DNA of 64,000 bases from Candidatus Xiphinematobacter sp. Idaho Grape (GTDB taxonomy: Bacteria > Verrucomicrobiota > Verrucomicrobiia > Chthoniobacterales > Xiphinematobacteraceae), in NCBI RefSeq assembly GCF_001318295.1, contig NZ_CP012665.1, forward strand, positions 434,001 through 498,000, given 5' to 3'. Positions 8,435-54,262 of this stretch are shown here, in pieces (the stretch's first letter is position 1; each line of letters begins with the position of its first letter). The notes beneath the pieces are model-generated. The model worked only from the letters and a program-made list of their open reading frames with translations, was not told the DNA's origin and searched no databases. Made by a program: the position numbers and the translations under genes.

Positions 8435-8506
8435 GCACCGGTAGCTCAACGGCAGAGCAGTTGACTCTTAATCAATTGGTTGAAGGTTCAAGTCCTTCTC
8501 GGTGCA
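8435..8506 (+). tRNA. tRNA-Lys(CTT)
   Basis: All four stems can be drawn: acceptor GCACCGG/TCGGTGC (one G-U pair), D stem GCTC/GAGC, anticodon stem GTTGA/TCAAT around the loop CTCTTAA (anticodon CTT), and T stem GAAGG/CCTTC with loop TTCAAGT. The discriminator is A and CCA is not encoded. It stands alone, transcribed divergently from gyrB. Confidence 0.93.
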
Positions 8507-13976: not shown

Positions 13977-14440
13977 GGAAGGGCGGGCAGGGGATGGCCG
14001 CTTTATCTCTGAGTTGATGAAGAGGAAAGTCCGGACACCAAAAGGCAGCATGCCATGCAAAGAGAAGCGCATGGGAGTGTAGTACGCAAGTTCTACGCGA
14101 CGGAGAGTATCACAGAGAATAGACAACCAGCCTGTTGGGGGCTTCTTAGGGCCGTACTCAACTCGTCTGGAAATGGTGAAAAGGCGGGGTAAGAGCCCAC
14201 CACCCCGAGCGTAAGCAAGGGGGTACGAAAAACCCCATGCGGTGCAAGACGAAATAGGAGGATGGGTCGCCTGCCCGATGAGGGTCATTCCCTTAGAAAC
14301 TCCGGGTATTAGGTCGCACCTGACAGAGGTCGGGGTTTTGTCCTGCTGGACAAAACAGAGAAATGGTCATCGCATCAGCACCTTGGCTAGGGCTGGGGAG
14401 CTGTTGTACAGAATCCGGCTTACAACTGCCCCTCCTTCCG
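13977..14440 (+). ncRNA. rnpB: RNase P RNA, bacterial class A
   Basis: Catalytic RNA that matures tRNA 5' ends. Conserved blocks are in order: GAGGAAAGTCCGGAC near 14021, AATGGTGAAAAGGCGGGGTAAGAGC near the middle, a GCGGTGCAAGACG block near 14240, and the closing ACAGAATCCGGCTTA near 14409. The ends are set by pairing of GGAAGG at 13977 with CCTTCC near 14434 and are approximate. At about 460 nt it is longer than most class A RNAs, which suggests an enlarged peripheral helix in the 14300-14400 part. The protein partner rnpA is at 24 kb in this window. Confidence 0.93.
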
Positions 14441-32150: not shown

Positions 32151-34235
32151 TCAGAGATCCTGTGCCTCGAAAAAGCCCTCCAGCTGACGCTTTCTAGTGG
32201 GATGGCGCATCTTACGCAGGGATTTCGCTTCAATTTGGCGGATCCGTTCGCGCGTCACGTTGAACTGGCGTCCCACCTCTTCCAGGGTGCGGCTATACCC
32301 ATCCGTCAGCCCGAACCTTTGCTCAAGGACTTGCCGCTCACGCTCGGTCAGTGTTGATAACACATCCTTAATTTTATCCTTGAGTAGAACAATCGCAGCC
32401 ATGTCGGCAGGGTTTTCGGCTCTCTTATCTTCAATAAAATCGCCGAAACTAGTATCTTCACTATCCCCCACCGGGGATTGTAAAGAAATAGGCTGCTGGG
32501 ACATTTTAAGGACGGCCCGTACACGTTCAACTGGGAGCTGAATTTCTTCAGCAACTTCTTCAGGAGTGGGCTCACGCCCATACTCCTGAACAAGCTGTTT
32601 TTGCACACGAATGAGTTTGTTAATCGTCTCAATCATATGTACCGGAATACGGATCGTACGAGCTTGATCAGCAATTGAACGCGTAATAGCCTGCCGGATC
32701 CACCAGGTGGCGTAGGTAGAAAATTTGTAGCCGCGTCGGTACTCGAATTTTTCTACTGCTTTCATTAACCCCATGTTTCCTTCCTGAATGAGATCAAGAA
32801 AGGAGAGGCCGCGGTTCGTGTATTTCTTAGCAATGGAAATTACTAGACGGAGGTTAGCTTCCACCATTTCCGTTTTTGCCACTAACGCTCTCCGATGCCA
32901 TTGTTTCAGCTCATCGTACTGCACGGCAAATTCTTCTGGGTTCAGCCAGAAGCAGTTCTCCATTTCCTCAAGCTGTCGGATACGTCTCCGATGCTCAGAG
33001 GTGTTGTTGCCATTACCATGATGCTTCGCGCCTGTGACTTCACCATGATGAAGACAGGAAAGCGCGTGATGAGTTTCGTCGGCAAGGCTAACAAAATCTT
33101 CTACAACTTTCTGCTTAAAATAAAATTTCGGGTATAATCTCCTAAGAAGGACCAAGTTTCTCTCGAAGTCCCTCCAATCTTGCGGAGCTGGGTGGCTGTG
33201 CCCAGAAATCTTAGACTGATAGATGTCGGAAACCAATTCAGCTTGTTTGTAGACCTGTTGGCACAGTCTTGGCAGTACCTTCATATAACGCTCTCGGCTC
33301 TCAATCTTCTTGTCTAGAATGACGCGATCAAAGCGTTCTCTGGACTCCATCAATTTTTGAGCAAGATCCAGATGGGCTTTTGCAGTAAAGCCGAAGCGAT
33401 ACAGAATACTTTGCACCCTCATCTCGGCCTCCTCAATGCGTTTGGAGATTTCTACCTCTTGTTCACGTGTGAGCAAGGGCACTTGTCCCATTTGTTTGAG
33501 ATACATGCGCACTGGATCGTCAAGAATATCAAGCTTATTGTCCTGTTTTTCATCCTTTTCCTCTTCTTCATCTGGATCTTTTTTGTCCTTAATGCGATCC
33601 ACTTCAGAAGATTCGATGATATCAATCTCCACAGCACGCAACTGTCCAATAACGGATTCAAGATTCTCTGGGTCATGAACTGCCGCCTTGGGAAGAGCTT
33701 CATCGAGGTCCTCGTAAGTGACATATCCTTGTTCCTTAGCAAGCTTAATCAGCTCACGCACTTTTTCCTGAAGGAGCTTTTGCTGTTCTTGGATACCACT
33801 CACCTCAGTAGGGTAAAGTGAAATAGAAAGTGGACTACCATTGCCGGGCGGGCTGTTTTTGTTTTCGGAGCGTAGACGCTTTTTAGCAGAGCTTCTGACG
33901 GGCTGGGTAACTTGTACGGCTTGTTTAGCAGGGTGTTTTCCCTGAGAAGACTTTTTTGCCGCGGGAGAGGAAGGCTCGGTAAAGGTCTTACTTCCCTTAG
34001 TAGCTGTTGCTCCTTTGACAAAGCGAGGAAACTTACGGAAACTAGGCCGGGCTGGGGGTGTTAGTGAGGTCTTAGGTGCTCCGCTTATCGTGGCAAGCTG
34101 CTCACTCCTGTCTTTCCCAGCTGCTTTGGTGTACGTCCCAACTCTAGTCTGGCGGTGGGTCTTTGTGCCTCTAGAAGCGGGCGGCCTATGCTCTGCAGAG
34201 GCACTTAGTGAAGGTTGGTCTGCTGTGGTATGCAA
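32151..34235 (-). CDS. rpoD: RNA polymerase primary sigma factor (sigma-70)
   Basis: Housekeeping sigma factor, 694 residues as drawn. The first 150 residues are Lys/Ser/Pro-rich and look disordered. Region 1.1 follows ([20 protein letters not shown]), then 1.2 ([21 protein letters not shown]), 2.3-2.4 ([22 protein letters not shown]), region 3, and 4.2 with the helix-turn-helix [24 protein letters not shown]. No ATG exists in the N-terminal part; the TTG at 34235 is the longest option, so the true start is uncertain. It lies 71 bases below dnaG, the usual macromolecular-synthesis order. Confidence 0.96.
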
Positions 34236-34306: not shown

Positions 34307-36127
34307 TTACAGGTTGCGCACTGGAAAAGGTGGCGAAATATCTTGTAGTTGCTGCTGGAGGTCAAGGAATTCTTTCTGTGCGACGCGGTGTTCCTCGCTG
34401 TTAGGAAGGACACTTTTTAACTTGATCCGTGCAGATTCCTGTCTTGCCTTTAGATGGTGACGTCTCATCCCCCACCAGCAGTCTATGGCAGTTGCAAGGA
34501 GGGCGCTTGGCATTTCCTTACGTAAGTCCCACGCTAAAACCGTATTTGCCTCGATAGGATTGAGAGACTCCAAGAAGGCTCCGAACGACAATGGATCATC
34601 TAATACAACTTTACTGGCTAGAATTTTCTCCAAAAGAGGGGTGTTGGGGAAGAGCTGTTGGACGGAGGGGCAGGTTTGTTTCGAGAGCCACCTTTGCACC
34701 TCCAGTGAAAAAAGCGCAAGGCGGCAGAGTAGTTTCGGCCCTTCTTCTAAGGAAAGCAAAGCGGGAAAAGAGCTAACTTCTTCATTTGGAAGATACCGAC
34801 AGTGAATATTTTTGGCAAGGAGCTGTGCAAAAGCTTGCGGGGAAACCCCAAGGCGAGATGCAATCTTCGTGGAGAACGCTTCGCGTAAAGCCAGAGTTTC
34901 AACCCAGGCGAGCAGGGAAGCAAATTTACGAACCAGAGTAATTTGACTTGTGGGATTGGACAAAGACCCATTCCTAGTAGCTTGATCAATAGCGAAATCA
35001 AAGTAATCAGGAGCTTGAGCAAGTAAATCTCGAAAAGCTGTTGGGCCTATTTGCCGGATAGTAGAATCAAGATCTTCTCCCGATGGGATGCGGACAATTT
35101 TGACAGATAACTCATGGGAGAAAAGGACTGGGAGGGAACGCTCAATAGCTTGTTCCCCAGCGCAATCAGCGTCGAAGCAGAGCAATACCCGCTCTACATA
35201 ACGCTTAAGGAGACGTGCTTGATCTTGGGTGAACGCAACACCTTGCGGGGAAACAACGTTACGGACACCTGCTTCAAAGCAAGAAATGAGGTCGATTTGT
35301 CCTTCGCATACGACAGCCTCGCCGGATTCGATCAGAGCATGCTTGGCTTTGTCAATCCCAAAGAGAATTCGTCCCTTAGAGAAGAGGGGCGTTTCTGGAG
35401 AATTCAAATACTTATTCTCAGAAAAAGCTTTTCCCACGATGCGTCCGCTAAAAGCGATTACTTCTCCTAAACCATTGTGGATGGGAAACATTACTCTTCC
35501 CCTAAAACGATCGTAAAGGCCAGAGGATCTCTTTCCTTGAGCAACAAGCCCAGAATGGAGCAGCTCCTGGTATGAAAATCCCTGAGAAATGGCCCATTCT
35601 GAAAAAGTATTCCAAGAGGCGGGAGCATAACCAACTTTCCATCTGAGTACTACCTCTTTAGAGAAACCGCGAAACTTTAGGTACTGGCACGCCTGAGCGG
35701 ATTCTGGGTGCTTGTCAAGCAATTTAGCATGAAACCAACGGGCAGCTTCAGCATGCAGCAGTAGGAGACGTGTGCGTTCGCTTTGGAAGTACTTACTCCT
35801 CTTGAGTTCTAAAATAGGGATTCCCGCCCTTTTTGCAAGCTGCTGCACAGCAGTAGGAAAGTCAATTTGTTCGTAGTTCATGATAAACCGAACAACGGTA
35901 CCGCTTATTCCGCAGCCGAAGCAGCGAAATGTCCTGTAAGTAGGATTAACGTAGAAGGAAGGGTTCTTCTCCTTATGAAATGGACATAGGGCCCGCCAGG
36001 AGCTCCCAGAACGCTTTAGTGGAAAGTAGGAGCCTATTACCTCCACAATGTCACTGGCAGCTGCTACTTGGCGAACGGTTTCTTCGGAAATTAATCCCAT
36101 AAAGCGAGCATATGGAAAGGAAGACAT
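34307..36127 (-). CDS. dnaG: DNA primase
   Basis: Makes RNA primers at the fork. It has 606 residues. The CHC2 zinc domain shows CPFHKEKNPSFYVNP and CFGCG. The TOPRIM domain has VVCEGQIDLISCFEAG and CFDADCAGEQA, and a DnaB-interacting C-terminal part follows. The ATG at 36127 has a GGAGGGG upstream, but that site lies inside a hairpin (36130-36156). A second ATG at 36100 (MGLISEETV) matches the usual family start and may be the real one. rpoD follows. Confidence 0.95.
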   Translation of the reverse strand: MSSFPYARFMGLISEETVRQVAAASDIVEVIGSYFPLKRSGSSWRALCPFHKEKNPSFYVNPTYRTFRCFGCGISGTVVRFIMNYEQIDFPTAVQQLAKRAGIPILELKRSKYFQSERTRLLLLHAEAARWFHAKLLDKHPESAQACQYLKFRGFSKEVVLRWKVGYAPASWNTFSEWAISQGFSYQELLHSGLVAQGKRSSGLYDRFRGRVMFPIHNGLGEVIAFSGRIVGKAFSENKYLNSPETPLFSKGRILFGIDKAKHALIESGEAVVCEGQIDLISCFEAGVRNVVSPQGVAFTQDQARLLKRYVERVLLCFDADCAGEQAIERSLPVLFSHELSVKIVRIPSGEDLDSTIRQIGPTAFRDLLAQAPDYFDFAIDQATRNGSLSNPTSQITLVRKFASLLAWVETLALREAFSTKIASRLGVSPQAFAQLLAKNIHCRYLPNEEVSSFPALLSLEEGPKLLCRLALFSLEVQRWLSKQTCPSVQQLFPNTPLLEKILASKVVLDDPLSFGAFLESLNPIEANTVLAWDLRKEMPSALLATAIDCWWGMRRHHLKARQESARIKLKSVLPNSEEHRVAQKEFLDLQQQLQDISPPFPVRNL

Positions 36128-36128
36128 T

Positions 36129-36156
36129 CGAGTTATCCCCTCCGGGGGAATAACTC
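36129..36156 (-). promoter_or_regulatory. Hairpin that contains the dnaG ribosome-binding site
   Basis: On the dnaG message the sequence just before the ATG at 36127 forms GAGTTAT-(T)-CCCC, loop CGGA, GGGG-ATAACTC, an 11-bp stem with a single bulge. The Shine-Dalgarno-like GGAGGGG is built from the loop and 3' arm. No T-run follows, so it is not a terminator. A translational control or thermometer-like role is inference. Confidence 0.55.
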
Positions 36157-36306
36157 TACGGGATTGTAGAGCATCCTGCTAGAATTAACGACAACTAGTA
36201 AAAACCTTGCTAAAAACCTTGCTACTTTGCTTTACTTTAGAGAGGATTCCCGCTAAGGTGAGTTAAGTTTTTAGAGCGGTTCGGTTATGTGCGAGCAAAA
36301 CAAACG

Positions 36307-37593
36307 ATGAAGATTATAGTGGCCTACTCAGGTGGTCTAGACACGTCTATTATTCTCAAGTGGCTAAAGCAGGTTTACTGTGCTGAGGTGATTGCTTTTT
36401 GTGCGGACATAGGACAAGAGGAGGAGTTAAAAGGACTGGTGGAGAAGGCCACACAGACTGGAGCAAGCAAGTGCTACGTGGAGGATTTACGGCTAGAGTT
36501 TGCAAGGGACTACATCTTCCCGGTTGTGCAGGCAGGTGCCCTGTATGAATGGCAATACTTTTTAGGAACCAGCATTGCACGGCCGCTTATTGCTAAGCGT
36601 ATGGTGGAAATCGCGCTTAGGGAGAAAGCGCAAGCCGTCGCCCATGGGGCCACAGGAAAAGGGAATGACCAGGTTCGTTTTGAACTCGCAGTTGCAGCGT
36701 TGGCACCTAATCTGAAGGTCATCGCTCCGTGGCGGGATGAACGTTTTCGCAATCAATTCCCTGGGAGAGCAGAGCTAATCGCCTATGCAAAGCGAGAGGA
36801 AATTCCGGTGACGGTCTCTTTAGAAAGACCGTATTCTACTGATCGCAACTTGTTGCATATCAGCTATGAAGGAGGTATCTTGGAAGACCCCTGGATTGAT
36901 GCTTCGGCAGACAGTAATAGGAACATGTTTCGCTTGAGCACCTCTCCGCAGGATGCTCCTGATTACACAGAAACCTTAGAGCTCCTTTTCGAAAAGGGCA
37001 ATTGTATTGGCTTGGCCTATTCAGGATTGCAAGACATCCTATCTTTTATGGGGCATGAAGAGAAAAATGATACAACTCTCAATCCGCTCTTAGTTATGCG
37101 TGTACTTAACAGGCTCGGAGGCAAGCATGGGATTGGCCGAGTGGACATGGTGGAAAACCGTTTTGTTGGCATGAAGAGCCGCGGCGTATATGAAACTCCA
37201 GGCGGCGCTATTTTACACTTCGCGCATCGCCAAATAGAGTCCCTAACCATGGATAGAGAGGTCATGCATCTGCGCGACTCCCTCATTCCTCAGTACAGCA
37301 CTCTTATATACAACGGCTTTTGGTTTTCTCCTGAACGGAAGGCTATCCAAGCCTTGATAACTGAATCACAAACACACGTGTCTGGTACAGTACGACTTAA
37401 GCTCTACAAGGGCAATGTCATCACAGCAGGTCGAAAGAGCGCTCTTTGTCTCTATAATTCCCGTATTGCCACTATGGAGAGTGGTGGTTCCGACGATGCC
37501 TATAATCAATCCGATGCGGATGGGTTCATCCGCCTACACGCGTTGCGGCTGCGGATTGCTTCTAAGGTCTACGGCAAGGACTCCCATCTCTGA
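36307..37593 (+). CDS. argG: Argininosuccinate synthase
   Basis: Joins citrulline and aspartate using ATP, the penultimate step of arginine synthesis. It has 428 residues from the ATG at 36307 ([14 protein letters not shown]), so the PP-loop AYSGGLDTS is at 5-13; in-frame GTG at 36289 is not needed. [13 protein letters not shown] near 117 and [18 protein letters not shown] near 178 are the other hallmark blocks. It is divergent from dnaG and separated by 17 kb from argC-argJ-argB. argH, argF and argD are not in the window. Confidence 0.97.
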
Positions 37594-54188: not shown

Positions 54189-54262
54189 TCGGGCCGGCGG
54201 GACTTGAACCCGCGACCTCTTGAACCCCATTCAAGCGCACTACCAAACTGTGCTACGGCCCG
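54189..54262 (-). tRNA. tRNA-Pro(GGG)
   Basis: Acceptor CGGGCCG/CGGCCCG, D stem GCAC/GTGC, anticodon stem CTTGA/TCAAG around loop ATGGGGT (anticodon GGG), and T stem GCGGG/CCCGC with TTCAAGT. The discriminator is A and CCA is not encoded. It stands alone between dnaE and argC on the other strand. Confidence 0.93.

Follow-up and report, generated by a model that had tools for sequence, protein, structure and literature searches.

An inverted repeat ahead of the primase gene dnaG in Candidatus Xiphinematobacter and the question of a hidden ribosome-binding site

In Escherichia coli, dnaG belongs to the macromolecular synthesis operon (rpsU-dnaG-rpoD), in which an internal terminator precedes dnaG. 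Leader hairpins that occlude the ribosome-binding site (RBS) are familiar as RNA thermometers and translational riboswitches, and stem-loops at the 5' terminus of an mRNA are known to protect it from decay. Cleavage of the E. coli dnaG mRNA by RNase E has also been described (PMC2824700). Bacteria in which Shine-Dalgarno (SD) sequences are scarce and the CCUCC anti-SD is intact include some Verrucomicrobia, e.g., Akkermansia muciniphila (PMC10783764). In the present study, we examined a stretch of DNA from Ca. Xiphinematobacter (CP012665), which lives in dagger nematodes as an endosymbiont (PMC4607532); in this stretch, a hairpin ahead of dnaG had been proposed to bury the RBS of this gene. 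The stretch analysed, hereafter the window, comprises 64,000 nt (positions 434001-498000 of C1 in G000) of a genome of 915,884 bp. A term search through the main texts of two Xiphinematobacter genome papers gave 0 mentions of either dnaG or rpoD.

The assignment of the open reading frame as dnaG, with rpoD downstream of it, was borne out by the domain matches of both proteins (DnaG, RpoD; Table 1), and the repeat sits in the 206-nt spacer from which argG and dnaG diverge. On the minus strand, positions 36156..36130 read GAGTTATTCCCC-CGGA-GGGGATAACTC, forming 11 Watson-Crick pairs with one bulged T; the hairpin of 11 pairs and a CGGA loop reported by the first-pass annotation is thus present, except that the bulged T had been omitted there. 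The run GGAGGGG (36143-36137) does overlap loop and stem as claimed, and lies 9 nt from ATG 36127 and 36 nt from ATG 36100. The repeat folded in isolation has a predicted energy of -14.7 kcal/mol for the dnaG strand; for the argG strand, the value is -15.8.

Table 1. Features of the argG-dnaG region and its neighbours, in window positions.
Feature	Position	Strand	Basis
dnaG, DNA primase (Zn ribbon, DNAG_N, Toprim, DnaB_bind)	34307..36100	-	ORF and domain matches
rpoD, primary sigma factor, downstream of dnaG	32151..34235 (putative start)	-	ORF and domain matches
argG, argininosuccinate synthase, divergent neighbour	36307..37593 (ATG 36307)	+	ORF and domain matches
First ATG in frame with dnaG, very probably unused	36125..36127	-	no start codon there in 21 other parsed loci
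Second in-frame ATG, probable dnaG start (MGLISEETVRQV...)	36098..36100	-	place common to 21/21 parsed relatives
Inverted repeat, potential stem-loop GAGTTAT(T)CCCC-CGGA-GGGGATAACTC	36130..36156	-	11 pairs, one bulge; 27 nt
Small inverted repeat CTCTAC-AATCCC-GTAGAG (6 bp; arms 36171-36166 / 36159-36154)	36154..36171	-	overlaps the 11-bp stem; the two are mutually incompatible
5' arm of predicted competing long-range helix (AAUCCCGUAGAGU)	36153..36165	-	predicted folds
3' arm of predicted competing helix, holding the 36100 start codon (GCUUUAUGGGAUU)	36093..36105	-	predicted folds; shuffle test
Best-kept block of the argG-dnaG spacer, possible promoter region	36213..36246	.	34 nt, 88% identical in G003

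Concerning the start of dnaG, 30 loci were compared, the window's own included (the best among 94 genomes with a match, of 97 searched), 8 of which remained unparsed by the DIV motif. All of the 22 parsed loci, again counting the window's own, carry a start codon at a distance of 15 or 16 codons upstream of this motif, a position that corresponds to 36100. In the sister genome G003, whose DnaG is 81% identical, an in-frame TGA stands between the place equivalent to 36127 and the conserved ATG, with four sense codons intervening, and a longer DnaG is therefore impossible in that genome. From the conserved start place together with the TGA of G003, it follows that DnaG very probably starts at 36100, at a distance of 36 nt from GGAGGGG. 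The earlier remark that ATG 36100 is the better-fitting start is well supported by this comparison (21/21 parsed relatives and the G003 stop), whereas ATG 36127 is without counterpart in the relatives and can hardly be retained as the start.

SD-like sites, defined as GGAG, GAGG or AGGA at -17 to -5, were then counted in this window only, among 46 ORFs of at least 120 aa, 37 of which have an ATG conserved in G003. Such sites precede 3 of the 37 conserved ATGs, as against 5.1 expected from in-gene positions (the ATGs were chosen by an automatic procedure, which may have erred for some); the anti-SD energy at these starts averages -2.2, weaker than the control value of -2.85. At the first starts of all 46 ORFs, 6 sites were found and 5.3 expected, and only one of the 29 parsed dnaG leaders has an SD-like site, while the 3' end of the 16S rRNA retains the anti-SD CCTCC (GGATCACCTCCTTT). 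Translation from 36100 thus probably takes place without an SD sequence. Since the genes of the window show no SD enrichment, SD-like runs here should not be taken as ribosome-binding sites. The buried RBS proposed for the 36127 start accordingly falls away, for that start has no counterpart, G003 has a stop ahead of the conserved ATG, and SD sites are not enriched in the genes examined.

Furthermore, the repeat is hardly kept among the relatives. Allowing up to 3 mismatches, it was found in one of the four genus genomes and is absent from G003. The G003 spacer does align around the site, with AATCCC upstream and TCGAAT-TCTTCCTTT downstream common to both (one MAFFT alignment, extended to the argG end, was of poor quality and was set aside), and within it 2 of the 8 scorable pairs of the stem are kept and 6 are broken, while a gap takes up another 3. 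Of the kept pairs, one is altered on both sides (C-G to U-A), a result that 253 of 500 shuffles give as well. The alignable leaders number two, those of the window and G003, so that covariation analysis is impossible. Conservation of the stem among relatives, on which the first-pass annotation had staked the hairpin, did not hold at the level of sequence in the one leader that could be aligned (2/8 scorable pairs). As for the remaining genomes, the argG and dnaG matches of G001 lie on separate contigs, G002 gave no dnaG match, and a DnaG search of other contigs for relatives returned 4 loci, one of them in this lineage (JAHFTB010000039.1, with the identity and span of G001 C14), hence no extra leader. 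Of 14 other hairpins in coding DNA of the window, 12 could be aligned to G003, keeping from 3 of 6 pairs up to all, and among 6 noncoding hairpins only that of the RNase P RNA was alignable by BLAST, with 8 of its 9 pairs kept. Within the spacer itself, positions 36213-36246 are a candidate promoter or control region. A 31-base pattern taken from this block occurs once each in G000 and G003 and is absent from the other two genus genomes, and a tandem pair of the 12-mer TAAAAACCTTGC (36199-36222) overlaps it.

The size of the repeat is likewise unexceptional in the window as a whole. The 64 kb contain two hairpins with 11 or more pairs, compared with a mean of 1.42 (sd 1.13) in the 60 first-order simulations taken as chance level, 23 of which gave at least 2; that the repeat is rarer than chance across the whole window was not confirmed. 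Among the 77 noncoding pieces (up to 120 nt) of the window, it is the only hairpin of at least 11 pairs. At a threshold of at least 10 pairs, the window holds 11 hairpins, 7 of them inside ORFs, versus 4.8 expected under the first-order null, i.e., about twice as many, and its palindromes are therefore commoner than this simple null says. Additionally, the palindrome occurs at one place in its own genome; a REP-like or mobile palindrome family was rejected on account of this single place and its presence in one of four genus genomes. A search of the window at Rfam gathering scores gave 3 matches, none in the spacer: RNase P RNA class A (13982-14438) and two tRNAs (8435-8506, 54189-54262).

Taken together, we lean, with slightly better than even confidence, towards regarding the palindrome as an unconserved feature of the argG-dnaG spacer, with dnaG starting at 36100, no hidden RBS and most likely no regulatory role. 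The start at 36100 would then be the one in use; because translation from it would probably be SD-free, the palindrome would hide no ribosome-binding site, and if it lay inside the dnaG transcript at all, it would stand 29 nt ahead of the start codon as a passive stem-loop. The absence of a function is what we infer from these points. As it stands, the result matters little: the dnaG start moves to 36100 and the supposed buried RBS is removed. The first-pass annotation had also offered a second option, a start at 36100 with the hairpin as a leader element, of which the start has stood (21/21 relatives) and the leader part has so far not, the stem sequence being unconserved.

This leader element, taken as a functional stem-loop in the dnaG-rpoD mRNA that would retain its structure through changes of sequence, is an unlikely, though not negligible, alternative to the absence of a role, and, if true, a control element for dnaG and rpoD would be of importance in a genome so poor in regulators. 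A transcript from near 36158-36163 would begin with a hairpin that protects it from decay, and a weak -10-like TACAAT upstream, to which TTTAAT is aligned in G003, would put the start at about these positions; a scan for sigma-70-type promoters, however, found 0 (0.6 in shuffles). The predicted folds depend on where the RNA is taken to begin and end. RNA beginning at 36158 or 36160 is predicted to form the outer stem with a probability of 0.96-0.97 for all three 3' ends tested, whereas a 5' end at 36163 gives 0.97, 0.00 and 0.78 for the 3' ends 36118, 36090 and 36040, RNA from 36166 or further upstream gives 0.00 to 0.10 (3' ends 36090 and 36040), and with the start region included the outer stem stays at or below 0.10 for six of nine assumed 5' ends; the inner CCCC/GGGG register reaches at most 0.43 in any setting tried. 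In these models, the 11-pair repeat was not confirmed as the preferred fold. G003, on the other hand, has an inverted repeat of its own, AAGGAAGATA/TATCTTCCTT (L002:1371-1398), 103-130 nt upstream and built of different pairs, which is the strongest hairpin among 99 noncoding pieces in 70 kb and covers part of the stretch that aligns with the window hairpin. With 4 hairpins of at least 9 pairs in 11,921 nt of G003 noncoding DNA, about 0.02 would be expected over a given site of such size by our arithmetic, and the overlap counts against the reading without function. Against a common structure, the pairing positions are not shared by the window and G003, and G001 has no hairpin of at least 8 pairs in 213 nt of leader. 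More broadly, 5 of 30 dnaG leaders of 120 nt, the window's own included, hold a hairpin of at least 9 pairs (1.3 expected) and 3 of 30 one of at least 11 pairs (0.16 expected), the controls being 1,097 other, mostly coding, stretches of the same loci. This excess is partly general to noncoding DNA, because 6 of 77 noncoding pieces in the window and 4 of 99 in G003 also reach 9 pairs; compared with the noncoding pieces of the window, it is small. The hairpin sequences of these dnaG leaders (L001-L030, from this taxonomic order) are unrelated, and the four hairpin leaders besides that of the window have no T-run directly behind the hairpin in the dnaG direction.

Improbable in our estimation is a start-codon switch, in which AAUCCCGUAGAGU would pair with GCUUUAUGGGAUU and sequester the 36100 start, with the 11-bp palindrome as the other state, reached first as transcription proceeds; in keeping with the latter, the outer stem has a predicted probability of 0.64-0.97 when the RNA ends at 36118 and the start region is not yet made. 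The competing helix would consist of 13 pairs (36165-36153 with 36105-36093) with the start codon inside, and would enclose a purine/pyrimidine hairpin (36143-36136 with 36121-36114). It appears in minimum-energy folds for 5' ends 36172 and 36163 and for leaders of 200, 120, 70 and 63 nt, but the minimum-energy fold of the 101-nt leader (36190-36090), from which the repeat is missing, has another long-range helix instead, and it is by that different fold that this leader outdoes 199 of 200 shuffles (z -2.9). Segment 36165-36085, whose end points were picked post hoc from the fold, reaches z -3.98, with 1 of 200 shuffles as good and the competing helix also in the centroid. Both scores count against the reading without function, albeit by folds other than the repeat. 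Pairing between the start region and upstream sequence is favourable in the window (-18.2, the shuffles averaging -12.3; p about 0.009) and gives p 0.02 in G001, but p 0.27 in G003; moreover, 2 of 29 dnaG leaders (the window and G001) reach p 0.05 where 1.5 are expected, and of 44 window genes none does so at 0.01 and 2 at 0.05, so that start-codon sequestration as a class was rejected as not above chance. The whole leader of G001 has z -0.22. The corresponding G003 leader shows a like topology at z -1.40 (17 of 200 shuffles), and its versions of 150 and 160 nt are predicted to pair UUAAUCCCAU with AUGGGGUUAA around a hairpin in which the conserved UCUUCCUU takes part, whereas the 200-nt version, AAUCCC included, folds otherwise; the topology common to both genomes cannot be counted as separate support, because AATCCC may be an inherited segment and the 3' arm belongs to coding sequence, and we keep the predicted helix as a lead only. 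Quite improbable, too, is a bistable dnaG-rpoD leader, in which the conserved AAUCCC on the AUGGGRUU start region would shut down primase and sigma synthesis and a variable fast-folding hairpin, namely the 11-bp stem here and another at an overlapping place in G003, would time it; if true, this would be a start-codon switch without SD in a genome that lost most protein regulators. Considered as DNA, a near-perfect palindrome between divergent genes could be an operator or protein-binding site in the argG-dnaG promoter region, but its single genomic copy, its absence from G003 at up to 3 mismatches and the better-kept spacer block elsewhere (36213-36246) speak against this, and we hold it to be highly improbable. 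An operator of LexA or ArgR in particular was rejected, no cognate repressor having been matched in G000: models of both proteins found no match in G000 (E 0.001), G003 or G001, and LexA one match in G002. The G+C-rich inner stem would also suit an attenuator or intrinsic terminator upstream of dnaG or argG; this is extremely improbable, for there is no T-run on either strand, a terminator scan found 0 (0.6 in shuffles), and the neighbours diverge, so that no gene ends here. The missing T-run behind the stem in itself contradicts an intrinsic terminator.

Set beside the known systems, the locus shares with the E. coli macromolecular synthesis operon the order of dnaG followed by the primary sigma factor gene. 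In contrast to that operon, no rpsU stands directly upstream of dnaG, argG diverging there instead, and the hairpin of the window has no T-run. With the leader hairpins that occlude an RBS, it has in common a stem near a start codon that holds an SD-like purine run, but the start concerned is very probably unused, SD sites are not enriched, the stem is unconserved (2 of 8 pairs in G003), and the Rfam gathering-score search gave no match for it. The passages of PMC10783764 on the SD-scarce group do not name Xiphinematobacter itself, and the window resembles that group both in having no SD enrichment and in having an intact anti-SD.
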